A stretch of 42,880 bases of DNA. Source: an uncultured Clostridia bacterium. GTDB taxonomy: Bacteria > Bacillota > Clostridia > Oscillospirales > Oscillospiraceae. The position numbers and the translations under genes are program-made. The notes under the pieces were generated by a model, which was not told the origin of the DNA, did not search any database, and saw only the letters and a program-made list of their open reading frames with translations. Below, piece by piece: positions 3,838-36,959 of the stretch (its first letter is position 1; each line of letters opens with the position of its first letter). The DNA lies in the NCBI GenBank assembly GCA_947365965.1, contig CANAZG010000017.1:1-42880 (forward strand). The letters run 5' to 3'.

Positions 3838-4761
3838 ATGTAAAATGTAAAAAGAGTCTTGTCTTTGTTTCTTGCAGCCTTTTTAGCTCTTACGGTTTCT
3901 CCTGTTGTCTATGCTGCAGATGTTTCTGCGCAAAATGCTCAGGATACAATTCGTGAGTACATTGAGGCGTTGGATAATAACGACTGGGGTAAAATCATAA
4001 CGTTGTCTCCTGATTGTGATTATCAGGAAAATGTTTCCTTCTACTACAGCAAAGAAAATGCCGAAAACGGTGTGGGTTTCCACACAATTACTTCGGCAAA
4101 GCTTGTAACGGCTATTGAGCTAGACAACCAGGACTTATTAGATTATACAAATGCGAATTATTATTTTGACACTTATAACGCCCTAAAACTTTATTTAGTA
4201 GGCGTTGATATGCTTGCCAATAAGGAAAGCAAATATTTCTACAACGGTGTAAACTTTTTCCTGGTAACCCTTGGGCAGGAAAACGGCGTTTGGAAGGTAG
4301 TACTTTTTTCTCAAGCACCTGCCACAGTAATTGCGTCAGCCACGCCGATATCGGCTCCTATTTCGGATGAAGGCAGCTATGTGAACTCTGCTGATATTGA
4401 AAAGGCTCTGAATATTATTCGTTCTCGATATGAAGGAGTTATTTTAGGTAGCGAAGGAAGCGTGATTGAAACAAATATTGCTTCCAGTGAGCAGCTTGCC
4501 GAGGAAAAAGGACTATCAAGCGCAGATATATCGGCTAAAATCAACCAATTTTTTATCAAAAACCAGTATGCTTACGGGGGCGCGGCAACGGCGGATTTCC
4601 TCAGTATTATGAATGGATATTATCAGGAAATTAAAAATCTGTTTTCTTGCTTGCGTTTAGAACCTGTATTCACAGACGCTGAAATCAATCCGCCGCAGAG
4701 GAGCGTACCGGCTCATCTGCGGCGGATTTGTTGTCTGATAATCCTCAAGAGAGATGGCTAA
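3838..4761 (+). pseudogene. Secreted protein of unknown function, damaged at 5' and probably 3' end
   Basis: The frame is open from codon TTG 3859 to 4761 (300 codons). It begins with a clear signal peptide (SLFLAAFLALTVSPVVYA) followed by a secreted domain that I do not recognise (IREYIEALDNNDWGKI... and a C-terminal part ending near 4680). In this frame ATG 3838 is followed directly by TAA and then AATGTAAAAAGAGTC, which would restore a classic MKNVKRV-type signal start if codon 2 were AAA. A second candidate, ATG 3825 with GAGAGG before it, is in another frame. At the 3' end the frame runs through a terminator hairpin (4687-4728), suggesting the natural stop is lost. The segment is strikingly A+T-rich next to its G+C-rich neighbours, which suggests transfer. 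It could still be translated from TTG 3859. Confidence 0.5.
4687..4728 (+). terminator. Strong hairpin at end of A+T-rich gene
   Basis: A 13-bp stem AATCCGCCGCAGA pairs with TCTGCGGCGGATT around a 16-nt loop that can pair further, followed by TGTTGTCT. It lies where the A+T-rich gene meets the convergent cation transporter gene and may serve both directions. Confidence 0.55.
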
Positions 4762-16672: not shown

Positions 16673-16714
16673 GCCGCAGAGATCTCCCTTTCCCGGAGGG
16701 CGGATTTCTGCGGC
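16673..16714 (+). terminator. Hairpin after mtaB
   Basis: An 8-bp stem GCCGCAGA/TCTGCGGC encloses a smaller CCCT/AGGG stem, 9 bp after the mtaB stop. Only a short A-run follows, so terminator function is uncertain. Confidence 0.35.
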
Positions 16715-16730
16715 GCCCCAAAATTCCCTC

Positions 16731-16759
16731 TTGCAATCCGGCTGTTCATCGTGTATAAT
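16731..16759 (+). promoter_or_regulatory. Promoter of SRP RNA
   Basis: -35 TTGCAA (16731-16736), 17-bp spacer, perfect -10 TATAAT (16754-16759). Its position predicts a transcript start near 16766, exactly at the 5' strand of the SRP RNA helix. Confidence 0.8.
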
Positions 16760-16765
16760 AAAGTC

Positions 16766-16940
16766 AGCACCATGAAATATCCTCCGCAGGCATTCGTGTT
16801 GAGGTTCCGGTCTCGCGCAATGGAAGCCTGTGAACCATGTCAGGCGGGGAACCGAGCAGCATTAAGCGGGACGAAATGTGCCGCGAGGGCTCCGGTTCGG
16901 AGCGGATGCTTGCGGAGAGTATTTCATGGGGCTCATTTTT
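16766..16940 (+). ncRNA. ffs: Signal recognition particle RNA (4.5S/scRNA)
   Basis: The apical SRP54-binding domain is clear: GTGAACCATGTCAGGCGGGG, then AACCGAGCAGCATTAAGCG (about 16831-16868), matching the Gram-positive scRNA consensus. The ends pair into a long hairpin: CATGAAATATCCTCCGCAGGC (16770 onward) is complementary, with small bulges, to the stretch at about 16902-16931, and an inner helix pairs GGTTCCGGTCTCGCG with CGCGAGGGCTCCGG. A T-run at 16936-16947 ends the transcript. The RNA acts with Ffh in co-translational membrane targeting. At roughly 170 nt it is between the short 4.5S type and the 270-nt Bacillus type; a separate Alu domain is not obvious. Exact ends are estimates. It lies just before dnaX, as in many Firmicutes. 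Confidence 0.88.
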
Positions 16941-16963
16941 TGTTTTTCCGGGAGGACACTTCC

Positions 16964-18685: not shown

Positions 18686-18694
18686 CATGAAACG

Positions 18695-18729
18695 ATTGTG
18701 CACAGCCCCTCGATGGGGCTGTGCATAAT
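18695..18729 (+). terminator. dnaX terminator hairpin, member of the ATCGA-loop hairpin family
   Basis: A perfect 11-bp stem TGCACAGCCCC (18699-18709) with loop TCGAT, followed by TAATTTA. It starts 9 bp after the dnaX stop. On the reverse strand its loop reads ATCGA, with the stem base TGCA and flanks ATT/AAT, which makes it the same type as the four hairpins at 36712-36879. Confidence 0.7.
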
Positions 18730-18782
18730 TTATATCGGAGTATGGCGGAAAAAGGTCTGCTGTCTGGGCTTCTGCTCGCACT

Positions 18783-19580
18783 TTACTCGGGCAGACCGCA
18801 TTGCGTCCAAAATTCCTCTATCGTCTTGTTGAATATTTGGGGGGTGTCCATATTTACACAATGCCCCGCATTTTCAAAAATCACAGCTTTACATTGTGGT
18901 TCTCGTTCCTTCCACATTTTGATTACTTCCAGTTCCGCTGGTATATCAAACTCCCCGCACCCGATCAGTAAGGGATACGCTCTCTGCCCTGTCTGACAGA
19001 CGTTTACCATATTGCGCAGGGACGCCAAGTACAGAAAGGATTTCCTTGGGAATTGAACATTCATATCGTAAAAATCATTTTGGGCCTGCAAGGTAAATGC
19101 GGATATTTTCTTATTTGATTCTGCAAACCACTTGATAGAAAACAGCGCTTTTAACATCATAAGCATGTGTGACGCACTATTTTCCTTCTGCATTTTCGTA
19201 TCGAAGTTATTGATATCATATCCGCCGAAGCAAGCAAGGGACTTGACCATATCTGGATAACGGTTTGCAAAATCCTGCGCTAAAACAGCGCCCAATGAAA
19301 CCCCCACAATATGTATTTTCCTGATCTTTTCCGCCGTCATAATATCGTATATCCATGCCGGCATTTTATCTATGCTGTCACCCTTTTTTGTATTGATTGA
19401 CTTCCCATGACCGATCATGTCAACGGCCAACACATTGTATTTGCCGCTGAAATATTCAATCTGTGTTCTGAACATATTATGATCGACAAAAGCGGCATGG
19501 AGGAAAAGCGTCCATTCATCGCAGTCCCTCCCGCTAACATAATATGTGATCGGTGAATCATCTATTTTGAGCTGCTTCAT
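18783..19580 (-). CDS. Alpha/beta-hydrolase fold protein
   Basis: 265 residues. The strand-turn-helix nucleophile motif is GVSLG (Ser-95 by my count); acid and base of the triad fit Asp-212 (CGEFDIPAE) and His-240 (NAGHCVN). An oxyanion-type segment LFLHAAFVDHNMF and VDMIGHGKS precede it, as in the haloperoxidase/esterase-like alpha/beta-hydrolases (AB_hydrolase_1). The substrate is unknown. ATG 19580 is preferred because GGGGTG lies 6 bases upstream; an in-frame GTG at 19589 is possible. Base composition is far more A+T-rich than flanking genes, like the two genes upstream of it, so it belongs to an acquired segment. Confidence 0.8.
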   Translation of the reverse strand: MKQLKIDDSPITYYVSGRDCDEWTLFLHAAFVDHNMFRTQIEYFSGKYNVLAVDMIGHGKSINTKKGDSIDKMPAWIYDIMTAEKIRKIHIVGVSLGAVLAQDFANRYPDMVKSLACFGGYDINNFDTKMQKENSASHMLMMLKALFSIKWFAESNKKISAFTLQAQNDFYDMNVQFPRKSFLYLASLRNMVNVCQTGQRAYPLLIGCGEFDIPAELEVIKMWKEREPQCKAVIFENAGHCVNMDTPQIFNKTIEEFWTQCGLPE

Positions 19581-32440: not shown

Positions 32441-32623
32441 AGTAGTCATCCTTTTTCTTGAAAGAAAAAGGATCAAAAAGAACTTTAGAGGTAGGATTCT
32501 GTGGCTGCCGACGGATCTGACGGGCTGTAAACGCCTCCGTCAGACTGCCGGCAGCCCTGGATAACTCCTTGAAAGTTTTTCTTTTGATTCTTTTCTTTGT
32601 TCACAAAGAAAAGAATGATTACT
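32441..32623. repeat. 183-bp inverted-repeat element (family 2, complete) between walR and walK
   Basis: The left end reads AGTAGTCATCCTTTTTCTTG, then AAAGAAAAAGGATC and AAAAAGAACTTT; the right end, read on the other strand, gives AGTAATCATTCTTTTCTTTG, then TGAACAAAGAAAAGAATC and AAAAGAAAAACTTT. Each end is itself a palindrome. The core (about 32497-32565) is G+C-rich and folds on CTGCCGG/CCGACGG- and TGACGG/CCGTCA-type stems. This resembles a MITE or a pair of inverted REP-like units. It may also act as a processing or attenuation site in the walRK message. Confidence 0.7.
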
Positions 32624-32659
32624 CCCGGCTAGGGCGTGTTGACAATTTTCAAACATGCC

Positions 32660-33370
32660 CTACTGCCCGGCGAAGTAGTACCCCACGCCCCGGCGGGTCA
32701 GGATCAGGGACGGGCTGGCGGGGTCATCCTCGATCTTCTCCCGCAGCCGCCGCACCGTCACGTCCACCGTGCGCACGTCGTCCCCCACATACTCGTAGTT
32801 CCACACCTGCTCCATCAGGTCGATGCGGGAGTAGACCCGGCCCGGGTGGCTGGCCAGGAAGGTGAGCAGCTCGTACTCACGCTGGGTCAGGTCAATGGGC
32901 TTGTCCTGCTTGCAGACCTGATAGTTGTCCGGGTTGATGGTCAGCCCGCCGCCGGCGCTCATGGCCCCGCTGGCGTCCGCCGGACCCGCCTGCTGCATGG
33001 CCGTGCGGCGGATGTTGGCCTTTACCCGTGCCATCAGCTCCCGCATGGAGAAGGGCTTGGTGATATAGTCGTCCGCCCCGATCTCCAGGCCCTGGACCTT
33101 GTCCGCCTCCTCCTCCCGGGCAGTGAGGATGATGACCGGCACGCTGCTGCCCTTCTCCCGGAGAATGCGGCACACGTCAAAGCCGATCATCTTCGGCAGC
33201 ATCACGTCCAGCAGCACGATGTCCGGGTTCTTCTCCAGGGCCATGGCGAGCCCCGTCTCCCCGTCGTAGGCGGTGAGGGTGGCGTAGCCCTCCTTCTCCA
33301 GGTTGAAGCGGACGATGTCCACGATGCTCTTCTCGTCCTCCACGATCAATACGGTCTTTTTCTCTTCCAT
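32660..33370 (-). CDS. walR: WalR (YycF) response regulator
   Basis: 236 residues. Receiver: KKTVLIVEDEKSIVDIV, phospho-acceptor Asp-55 in VLLDVMLPKMIGFDVC, and K in YITKPFSMRELMARV. OmpR-type winged helix (about 140-236): LTQREYELLTFLASHPGRVY and the recognition helix in DDVRTVDVTVRRLREKIE, the near-invariant WalR stretch. ATG 33370 has AAGGGGA upstream. It belongs to the run gdpd-nudix-walR-walK-yycH. Confidence 0.92.
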   Translation of the reverse strand: MEEKKTVLIVEDEKSIVDIVRFNLEKEGYATLTAYDGETGLAMALEKNPDIVLLDVMLPKMIGFDVCRILREKGSSVPVIILTAREEEADKVQGLEIGADDYITKPFSMRELMARVKANIRRTAMQQAGPADASGAMSAGGGLTINPDNYQVCKQDKPIDLTQREYELLTFLASHPGRVYSRIDLMEQVWNYEYVGDDVRTVDVTVRRLREKIEDDPASPSLILTRRGVGYYFAGQ

Positions 33371-36246: not shown

Positions 36247-36624
36247 TTACCAGCGTCCGCTGGCGCTGCCGTCCATATTTCCGTCCACGTCGGTGACGCG
36301 GGCGTTGTCCAGCATCCGCTGGAAGCTGGTGGCGCCGGCTGTGCCCCGGGTCACGTCATCCACCGCCCGGCGGCCGCCGTCCCACATGTCCTCCACCGCG
36401 TCGCCCACGTCGTCCAGCCCCCGGCGCACGTCGCTGCCGATGCTGCTGCGGGCCTGGGTGCCGGCCCGGGCGCTGTTGTTGGCGTTGACGCCGTTGTCGG
36501 AGCTGGTGGAACCGTTGGTGACGGCGCCGTTGGCGTCGTTCCGATCCTGGCTGCCCTGGCCGCCGCAGGCGGTCAGAGACAGCGCCAGAGCTGCGGCTGC
36601 CGCAAAAATCACTGCTTTTTTCAT
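36247..36624 (-). CDS. Small predicted lipoprotein
   Basis: 125 residues. A signal peptide MKKAVIFAAAAALALSLTAC ends in the lipobox LTAC, so Cys-20 is the expected lipidated residue. The mature part begins with a long Asn/Ser/Thr-rich linker (about 25-60) and then a short helical section RSSIGSDVRRGLDDVGDAVEDMWDGGRRAVDDV with no known domain. It is probably surface-exposed; no function is suggested. ATG 36624 is set by GGAGGAGG-like purines just upstream. Its upstream region runs into the hairpin element beginning at 36647, so that element may carry or disrupt its promoter. Confidence 0.75.
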   Translation of the reverse strand: MKKAVIFAAAAALALSLTACGGQGSQDRNDANGAVTNGSTSSDNGVNANNSARAGTQARSSIGSDVRRGLDDVGDAVEDMWDGGRRAVDDVTRGTAGATSFQRMLDNARVTDVDGNMDGSASGRW

Positions 36625-36711
36625 CCCTGGTAATCCTCCCTCCTTAGAGCCTGTATCATATCTCCCCACGCCCGTCTTGGCGGCGTATTTTCCGCCTTGA
36701 CTTCGTTATAG

Positions 36712-36747
36712 ATTCTGCAACGGCCCCATCGAGGGGCCGTGCAGAAT
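36712..36747 (+). repeat. ATCGA-loop hairpin 1 (forward)
   Basis: ATTCTGCA, an unpaired A, the 7-bp stem CGGCCCC, loop ATCGA, GGGGCCG and TGCAGAAT. Confidence 0.75.
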
Positions 36748-36750
36748 TGG

Positions 36751-36786
36751 ATTGTGCATGACCGCTCGATGCGGTCATTGCACAAT
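36751..36786 (-). repeat. ATCGA-loop hairpin 2 (inverted)
   Basis: On the reverse strand: ATTGTGCA, an unpaired A, the 7-bp stem TGACCGC, loop ATCGA, GCGGTCA and TGCACAAT. It starts 3 bp after hairpin 1. Confidence 0.75.
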
Positions 36787-36807
36787 CGTTCCTTGCCATC
36801 CGATCAG

Positions 36808-36842
36808 ATTCTGCACGGGCGCATCGAGCGCCCGTGCAGAAT
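36808..36842 (+). repeat. ATCGA-loop hairpin 3 (forward)
   Basis: ATTCTGCA, the 7-bp stem CGGGCGC, loop ATCGA, GCGCCCG and TGCAGAAT: a perfect 15-bp stem with no bulge. Confidence 0.75.
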
Positions 36843-36843
36843 A

Positions 36844-36879
36844 ATCGTGCATGACCCCTCGATGAGGTCATTGCACGAT
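36844..36879 (-). repeat. ATCGA-loop hairpin 4 (inverted)
   Basis: On the reverse strand: ATCGTGCA, an unpaired A, TGACCTC, loop ATCGA, GGGGTCA and TGCACGAT, with one mismatch in the inner stem. It starts 1 bp after hairpin 3, so hairpins 3-4 repeat the forward/inverted pairing of 1-2. Confidence 0.75.
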
Positions 36880-36891
36880 ATGGATGCCTGC

Positions 36892-36920
36892 GGATTTTTG
36901 CCTTGCAAGGCAAAAAATCC
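36892..36920. repeat. 29-bp palindrome
   Basis: GGATTTTTGCC and GGCAAAAAATCC flank TTGCAA; the arms differ by one extra A. It lies just inside the right end of the element. Confidence 0.6.
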
Positions 36921-36959
36921 ACTCACCAATCCGCACACGTTGAGATATGAAACAGGCTC

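Follow-up and report, generated by a model that had tools for sequence, protein, structure and literature searches.

The window analysed here, a stretch of 42,880 nucleotides from the genome of an uncultured Clostridia bacterium (contig CANAZG010000017.1 of assembly GCA_947365965.1), contains a composite element upstream of a short lipoprotein-like gene, so labelled on the basis of what we take to be a lipobox. The location proposed in an earlier, sequence-only reading of this DNA thus holds, with 22 bp separating the element from the ATG start codon (positions 36622-36624, minus strand). On the other flank of the element lies a divergent frame encoding a 1006-aa protein with GGDEF, EAL and PAS domains. 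When the region between positions 36500 and 37200 was searched by simple consensus, no promoter or terminator was found. The coordinates of the individual features are collected in Table 1.

Table 1. Features of the element, its neighbouring gene and one related locus
Feature	Position	Strand	Remarks
Lipoprotein-like frame, 125 aa, with the element in its 5' region	36247..36624	-	No Pfam family
Whole composite element, type-A MITE and two doublets	36647..36959	.	313 bp
Left terminal inverted repeat	36647..36664	+	GAGCCTGTATCATATCTC
Left MITE arm with small GGCGG..CCGCC hairpin (36679-36696)	36665..36710	+	
Hairpin doublet 1: 36711-36747 (+), 36751-36787 (-); spacer 36748-36750	36711..36787	+	Model R1
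MITE core remnant separating doublets 1 and 2	36788..36806	+	Alignment with empty copies
Hairpin doublet 2: 36807-36842 (+, no bulge), 36844-36880 (-); spacer 36843	36807..36880	+	Model R1
Right MITE arm with 29-bp palindrome (36892-36920)	36881..36941	+	
Right terminal inverted repeat	36942..36959	-	GAGCCTGTTTCATATCTC (minus-strand reading)
IS200-type element with Y1 gene in type-C MITE, beside a doublet	1124-2123 of locus L106 (G018:C24)		

Anatomy of the element

The 18-bp inverted ends, described from the sequence as differing at one position, are complementary at 17 of 18 positions (94%). Between them, the small hairpin, the four larger hairpins and the 29-bp palindrome were all located in the order first given, and scoring with model R1 bore out the alternation of the four hairpins (+ - + -), with gaps of 3, 21 and 1 bp between stems. 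A bulge is present in three of these four hairpins and absent from the first hairpin of doublet 2. The sole frame spanning most of the element, a minus-strand GTG ORF of 88 aa, is a mechanical one. Folded as DNA, the element reached -101.7 kcal/mol, as compared to -46.9 +/- 4.2 kcal/mol in 100 shuffles (z -13.1), with the opposite-strand RNA giving a z of -13.6. At the Rfam gathering threshold, no family was assigned to the element.

When the 313 bp were used as a BLAST query against the genome of origin (G000; 3.39 Mb in 230 contigs, 76.6% complete), 53 matches were obtained, including the element itself and hairpins that match in both orientations, such that a single-copy region is excluded. 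These matches correspond to modules rather than to whole copies, comprising either the ends and outer core (query positions 1-70 and 236-313) or the hairpins. The element is confirmed as a real, modular and nested composite, namely, a MITE carrying a separate hairpin repeat. As to the suggestion that REPIN-type doublets are packaged here into a MITE-like unit, the anatomy stood, while membership among RAYT-linked REPINs did not, given that neither a tag nor a hairpin-flanked Y1/RAYT gene was found.

Related sequences were seen elsewhere in the window. A lone hairpin (18695-18730) followed by MITE-like sequence, at positions 18690-18790, probably represents a degenerate MITE retaining half a doublet. 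Isolated type-B ends (see below) lie nearly back to back at positions 32631-32662 (TAGGGCGTGTTGACAATTTTCAAACATGCCCTA) and are adjoined by other hairpins at approximately 32450-32620, and a lone type-C end with 3 mismatches, for which no partner end was found, lies at positions 4659-4676. The bacterial large SRP RNA (RF01854) was recognised at positions 16691-16953.

The outer MITEs and their empty and filled states

Three MITE families can be distinguished by their ends, namely, A (GAGCCTGTTTAGCATCTC), B (AGGGCTTGTTTGATAATT) and C (AGAACCTGTATTCATAAC). Among the collected loci, 14 of 20 two-ended type-A copies are bordered by exact 3-bp target duplications, all of the form TNA (TAA in 5, TTA in 5, TGA in 3 and TCA in 1); the copy in the window is one of the six with no exact duplication (TTA / ATA). 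In type B, TA is found at both junctions in 9 of 12 copies, and in type C, exact TNA repeats are seen in 4 of 8 rows, provided that the terminal A is assigned to the target.

DUF4096 transposases were sought in 18 genomes, of which 11 were positive, and 30 loci were scanned for MITE-type ends. No pair of such ends was detected in the majority of these 30 loci. Each MITE family found a counterpart. The genome of the window contains, at G000:C28, an 868-bp IS that encodes DUF4096 and DDE_Tnp_1 domains, is flanked by TAA and carries GAGCCTGTTTAAAATCTT at both ends; these agree at 15 of 18 positions with the type-A consensus, and at 14 and 15 of 18 with the two ends of the window copy. Type-B ends were found on an IS in G006 (L225; both within 2 of 18 positions), and type-C ends on ISs in G020 (L212; within 2) and G000 (L233; within 2 and 3). 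Local alignment of the MITE cores with the ISs gave scores of 15-22, where shuffled cores average 16-17, suggesting that the cores were not derived from the ISs. By contrast, homology links the A, B and C cores, whose mutual comparison gave scores of 90, 81 and 48; the best of 1000 shuffles in each case reached 32, 27 and 28, respectively. Because of its ends, target duplications, copies and related IS, the unit is a MITE; with ends resembling those of IS5-type elements, a TNA duplication, several copies and no transposase gene, the outer element is an IS5-family MITE of 160 bp.

Each of the three families occurs without a doublet and with one, with two doublets being found in families A and C. 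In type A, 11 of 20 copies measure 160-161 bp, seven 218-241 bp and one, that of the window, 313 bp, the remaining size being a 106-bp deletion; the empty copies are distributed among five genomes (five in G000, three in G001 and one each in G008, G011 and G023). Type-B copies measure 161 or 163 bp when empty, and the nine that hold a single doublet measure 238 or 241 bp. Type-C copies measure 164 bp when empty, 206-239 bp in five cases and 318 bp with two doublets. Rows falling outside these size classes are the 106-bp type-A deletion, a type-B row of 118 bp, a type-C row of 79 bp that is probably due to chance and a type-A copy with a diverged core (L095).

Alignment of filled and empty copies revealed, in family A (L019 versus L003) as in family B (L069 versus L009), that 75-76 bp are inserted precisely at CCGTCA^GGATGCC, with neither target duplication nor loss of sequence. 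At site 1, which follows GTTA, empty and filled copies disagree in a few bases. The change between the empty and filled states is probably insertion rather than loss. The doublet occupies the same core position in A and B, and seven type-B copies in G000 carry it at the same place; since A and B share this position, a single event that spread with the core may be involved. In the merged copies L004, L005 and L006, the left part of doublet 1 is joined to the right part of doublet 2.

The locus of the window itself was also sought in relatives. Matches to the lipoprotein were obtained in 22 of 24 genomes; in 15 stretches containing homologues of its gene, a type-A end was present in none and a type-C end in one (L251). 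As three neighbouring genes of the window were unmatched in all 15 of these stretches, no syntenic locus and, hence, no orthologous empty site was found among them.

Structure and distribution of the hairpin doublets

The doublet is a sequence of approximately 75-77 bp comprising two inverted hairpins, mostly bulged and with the loop ATCGA. Alignment of 27 hairpins defined a stem of 15 pairs, interrupted by a single bulged base and closed by a loop of 5 nt, with 97.5% pairing. Cells changed on both sides of a pair numbered 72, whereas shuffles gave 18.4 +/- 3.6 and slid controls no more than 10; the pattern with which the hairpins were gathered fixed part of the stem, leaving free columns 5, 16, 11 and 13, where most of the two-sided change is seen. 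The number of further pair types was not above that of shuffles (20 versus 19.5). Pairing in the hairpin is kept by compensatory change.

The layout of the hairpins was considered in G011, keeping the better strand for each of 145 R1 rows. At least 93 hairpins were found in 59 clusters, including 32 doublets, all of them (+-) and none (-+), with spacers of 3 nt in 25, 2 nt in six and 8 nt in one. Lone hairpins number 27, and one same-strand pair was seen. Inspection of eight of these lone hairpins revealed seven to be doublets in which the other half is interrupted at its loop and one to have a decayed partner. The interrupting insert in those seven is hairpin-rich and approximately 57 bp long, running off the contig end in two cases. 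At L113, L178, L181, L202 and L203 in G011, and at L142 and L169, such an insert was observed at TC^GAT of the doublet-hairpin loop, as was a related one at a hinge of the hairpin array described below, forming a third layer of nesting.

Across all loci, 75 distinct doublets were collected, with spacers of 3 nt in 60, 1 nt in 11 and 2 nt in four, and with a bulge in 128 of the 150 halves. Membership in this set required at least 4 of 5 loop bases and at least 12 of 15 pairs, such that the loop and pairing values of the set depend on those thresholds. The tag GTAG was encountered in 6 of 149 flanks, amounting to no visible tag, and CGTC, TGTC or CCTC within 6 bases in 10 of 149, short of what a CGTC-type tag would call for.

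R1 hairpins were detected at E <= 0.05 in 13 of 26 genomes, all 13 being among the 25 of the genus, with G019 contributing a single weak hairpin. In an order-wide sample of 295 genomes searched with stricter filters at E <= 1e-4, only the window's own genome was positive (0 of 294 others). As no more than 150 candidates per genome (23 in the 295-genome sample) were scored in these searches, which list both strands, all such numbers are minimum values. The genomes themselves are draft MAGs, with completeness below 80% in several. Named records bearing the motif belong to Oscillibacter sp., Oscillospiraceae and one Clostridia MAG. Searches of plasmids and phages by blastn, and of viral contigs with one exact pattern, yielded no match.

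G000 yielded 20 doublets at 18 loci, every one of them between MITE ends, as well as the lone hairpin at positions 18695-18730 of the window. In relatives, doublets are found outside these MITEs. Indeed, among the matches listed, query positions of approximately 64-143 were matched alone, away from type-A ends, in G008, G009, G011, G015, G017, G018, G020 and G023; two G006 matches of this lone type sit in type-B MITEs. In a rough motif-based sort of the 75 doublets, 21 lie between two MITE ends, two are accompanied by one end, 36 lie near a different hairpin array and 16 lie elsewhere. That larger intergenic array was observed in G008, G011, G017, G018, G020 and G023 (e.g., L147, L154 and L164) and comprises, in order, a GCCGCC.. 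hairpin, a CCCGGGGGC.. hairpin, a CCTACTTTT..AAAAGTAGG hairpin, a CTTAAACC..GGTTTAAG hairpin and AATCCCTT; a doublet lies between its hairpins in some cases and is missing in others. A doublet lies directly upstream in 15 of 48 distinct copies of the core hairpin of the array, the others having none, these 48 having been gathered with a loose pattern and some probably being due to chance. According to a naive ORF call for 38 doublets, too rough to bear on any bias in gene context, nine lie between tandem, five between divergent and four between convergent frames, nine are at stretch ends and 11 lie inside frames of at least 90 aa, four of which exceed 200 aa.

Origin of the composite and comparison with known systems

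We consider it probable that the element is a nested, composite and non-autonomous one, in which a MITE moved by an IS5-type transposase carries two independently mobile doublets. An IS5-family (DUF4096/DDE) transposase would recognise the ends of the 160-bp MITE and move it in trans, leaving a TNA duplication, as the similarity between the ends of the MITEs and those of the ISs suggests. Two copies of the unrelated hairpin heterodimer would enter the MITE at two sites without target duplication. A doublet would, in this manner, insert by itself and then travel along with the MITE as a passenger, with some copies merging two doublets into one. Spread of the doublet would most likely involve folded single-stranded DNA and recognition of its bulge and loop by an enzyme, much as for REPs/REPINs or IS200/IS605 ends. 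This route is proposed on account of the bulge, the loop and the lack of target duplication, these being features that TnpA_REP and IS200/IS605 transposases read (PMC8266576).

Alternatively, the doublets may not be self-mobile at all, having arisen once and spread as passengers of MITEs and other repeats through transposition of the host repeat and recombination. Speaking for such spread are the confinement of all 20 doublets of the window's genome to MITEs, the common position of the doublet in the cores of families A and B, the sharing of cores by families with different ends and the recombination products L004-L006. Elsewhere, however, doublets occur between the hairpins of the array, in a hairpin loop and after the array, 16 of the 75 are in no recognised context, and the junctions are clean, with no residual MITE arm. 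On balance, passenger spread on its own is an unlikely explanation.

The doublets could also be ordinary REPINs driven by a RAYT, the gene for which was lost or falls in an assembly gap. Like REPINs, as presented in PMC3116915 and PMC8266576, they are extragenic, inverted hairpin dimers with an irregular stem, with the inverted order being kept in 32 of 32 G011 doublets and the stem bulge, as in group 2 REPs, in 128 of 150 halves; moreover, draft genomes easily lose repeat-flanked genes. Against this, GTAG was found in only 6 of 149 flanks, such that the 5' tag is missing. The Y1 family (PF01797) was sought in 40 genomes, of which 12 were positive, five of these (G000, G008, G018, G019 and G021) being among the 25 of the genus, yet no match was obtained in G006, G009, G011, G015, G017 or G020, all hairpin-bearing drafts and, in the case of G011, G015 and G017, hairpin-rich. 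When 20 Y1 loci were scanned for TCGA-loop hairpins, a doublet was found at the G018 locus only, and no hairpin-bordered RAYT gene was seen in these draft genomes. The G018 gene was rejected as a RAYT beside its repeat, as the locus proved to be a type-C MITE into which an IS200-type element is inserted (Table 1). As such, the sequence-only proposal that a RAYT/Y1 gene be sought in copy-rich genomes led to none linked to the hairpins, and RAYT/Y1 was set aside as present mover of the doublet, given this lack of linkage and its absence from G011, G015 and G017. Ordinary RAYT-driven REPINs are, accordingly, an improbable account. The sole Y1 match in G000 (L105 1274-1717; G000:C14) reads HVY where an HUH motif is presumably expected and may thus be inactive.

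Finally, a role for the host, as a regulatory or RNA element selected for its structure in front of the lipoprotein gene (e.g., an attenuator or mRNA stabiliser), would fit the compensated pairing, the very stable fold and the 22-bp distance from the start codon, but is highly implausible given copies at unrelated loci with varying numbers of modules, the near absence of MITE ends from the 15 lipoprotein-homologue stretches and the lack of an Rfam family or a promoter- or terminator-like consensus site; the element may still affect expression locally.

Returning to the nested composite, the host is an Oscillibacter-type gut bacterium in which doublets within a MITE represent a parasite within a parasite, the inner repeat being apparently independent. 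A single MITE core is combined with three sets of ends, and each set is close to the ends of a different IS5-type IS, which points to non-autonomous elements that change transposase. The precise empty and filled MITE sites and the dozens of pairing-preserving variants allow the boundaries of the unit and its recognition features to be identified and tested. It is conceivable, if rather doubtful, that the doublets represent a new, RAYT-independent class of mobile hairpin heterodimers favouring the hairpin loops and hinges of other repeats such as MITEs and hairpin arrays, on a MITE chassis that switches transposase via exchange of ends around one core; if so, repeats accumulate in layers, as a community, within a single genus. 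What would raise the interest of the element is the mover of the doublet.

In terms of known systems, the outer element resembles IS5-family MITEs, the nearest of which we take to be those grouped as IS427/IS1031-like, in having IS5-type ends and TNA duplications, in being non-coding and in occurring in many copies. It differs in that the core is not, on present comparisons, IS-derived, is common to three end types and contains foreign doublets. A search of open-licence papers found neither the hairpin family nor the nested combination described; the parts look like known kinds of element, while the hairpin family and its nesting appear undescribed.

The doublets share with REPINs (PMC3116915 and PMC8266576) the inverted extragenic pairing of hairpins, the irregular stem and the occurrence of lone hairpins as remnants of pairs, and differ in having no GTAG, 15-bp stems, the loop ATCGA, a spacer of 1-3 nt and no linked RAYT. 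The GTAG- and CGTC-tagged REPs treated in PMC3733652 likewise form head-to-head dimers and heterodimers, some with short spacers, and include a family without a transposase and some dimers inserted in palindromes; here, by contrast, there is no tag, and the stem comprises 15 pairs and the loop 5 nt, as compared to a stem of 8-9 and a loop of 4-5 in CGTC REPs. As that paper already describes dimers located inside longer palindromes, heterodimers, 1-2-bp spacers and one superfamily to which no transposase is linked, no single feature seen here is unprecedented. What moves REP-like repeats without a linked RAYT is an open question raised there for CGTC REPs; the terms Firmicutes and Clostridi (as word starts) are absent from the main text of that paper. 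Pneumococcal BOX elements (PMC3049150) are alike in build: their ends are constant while the number of modules between them varies, in S. suis the same module is bounded by different ends, and repeats are nested in one another. They differ in that the module is here also found outside those ends. Among these systems, tagged REPs and REPINs are nearest to the doublets in layout, and BOX is nearest to the composite in its modular build.
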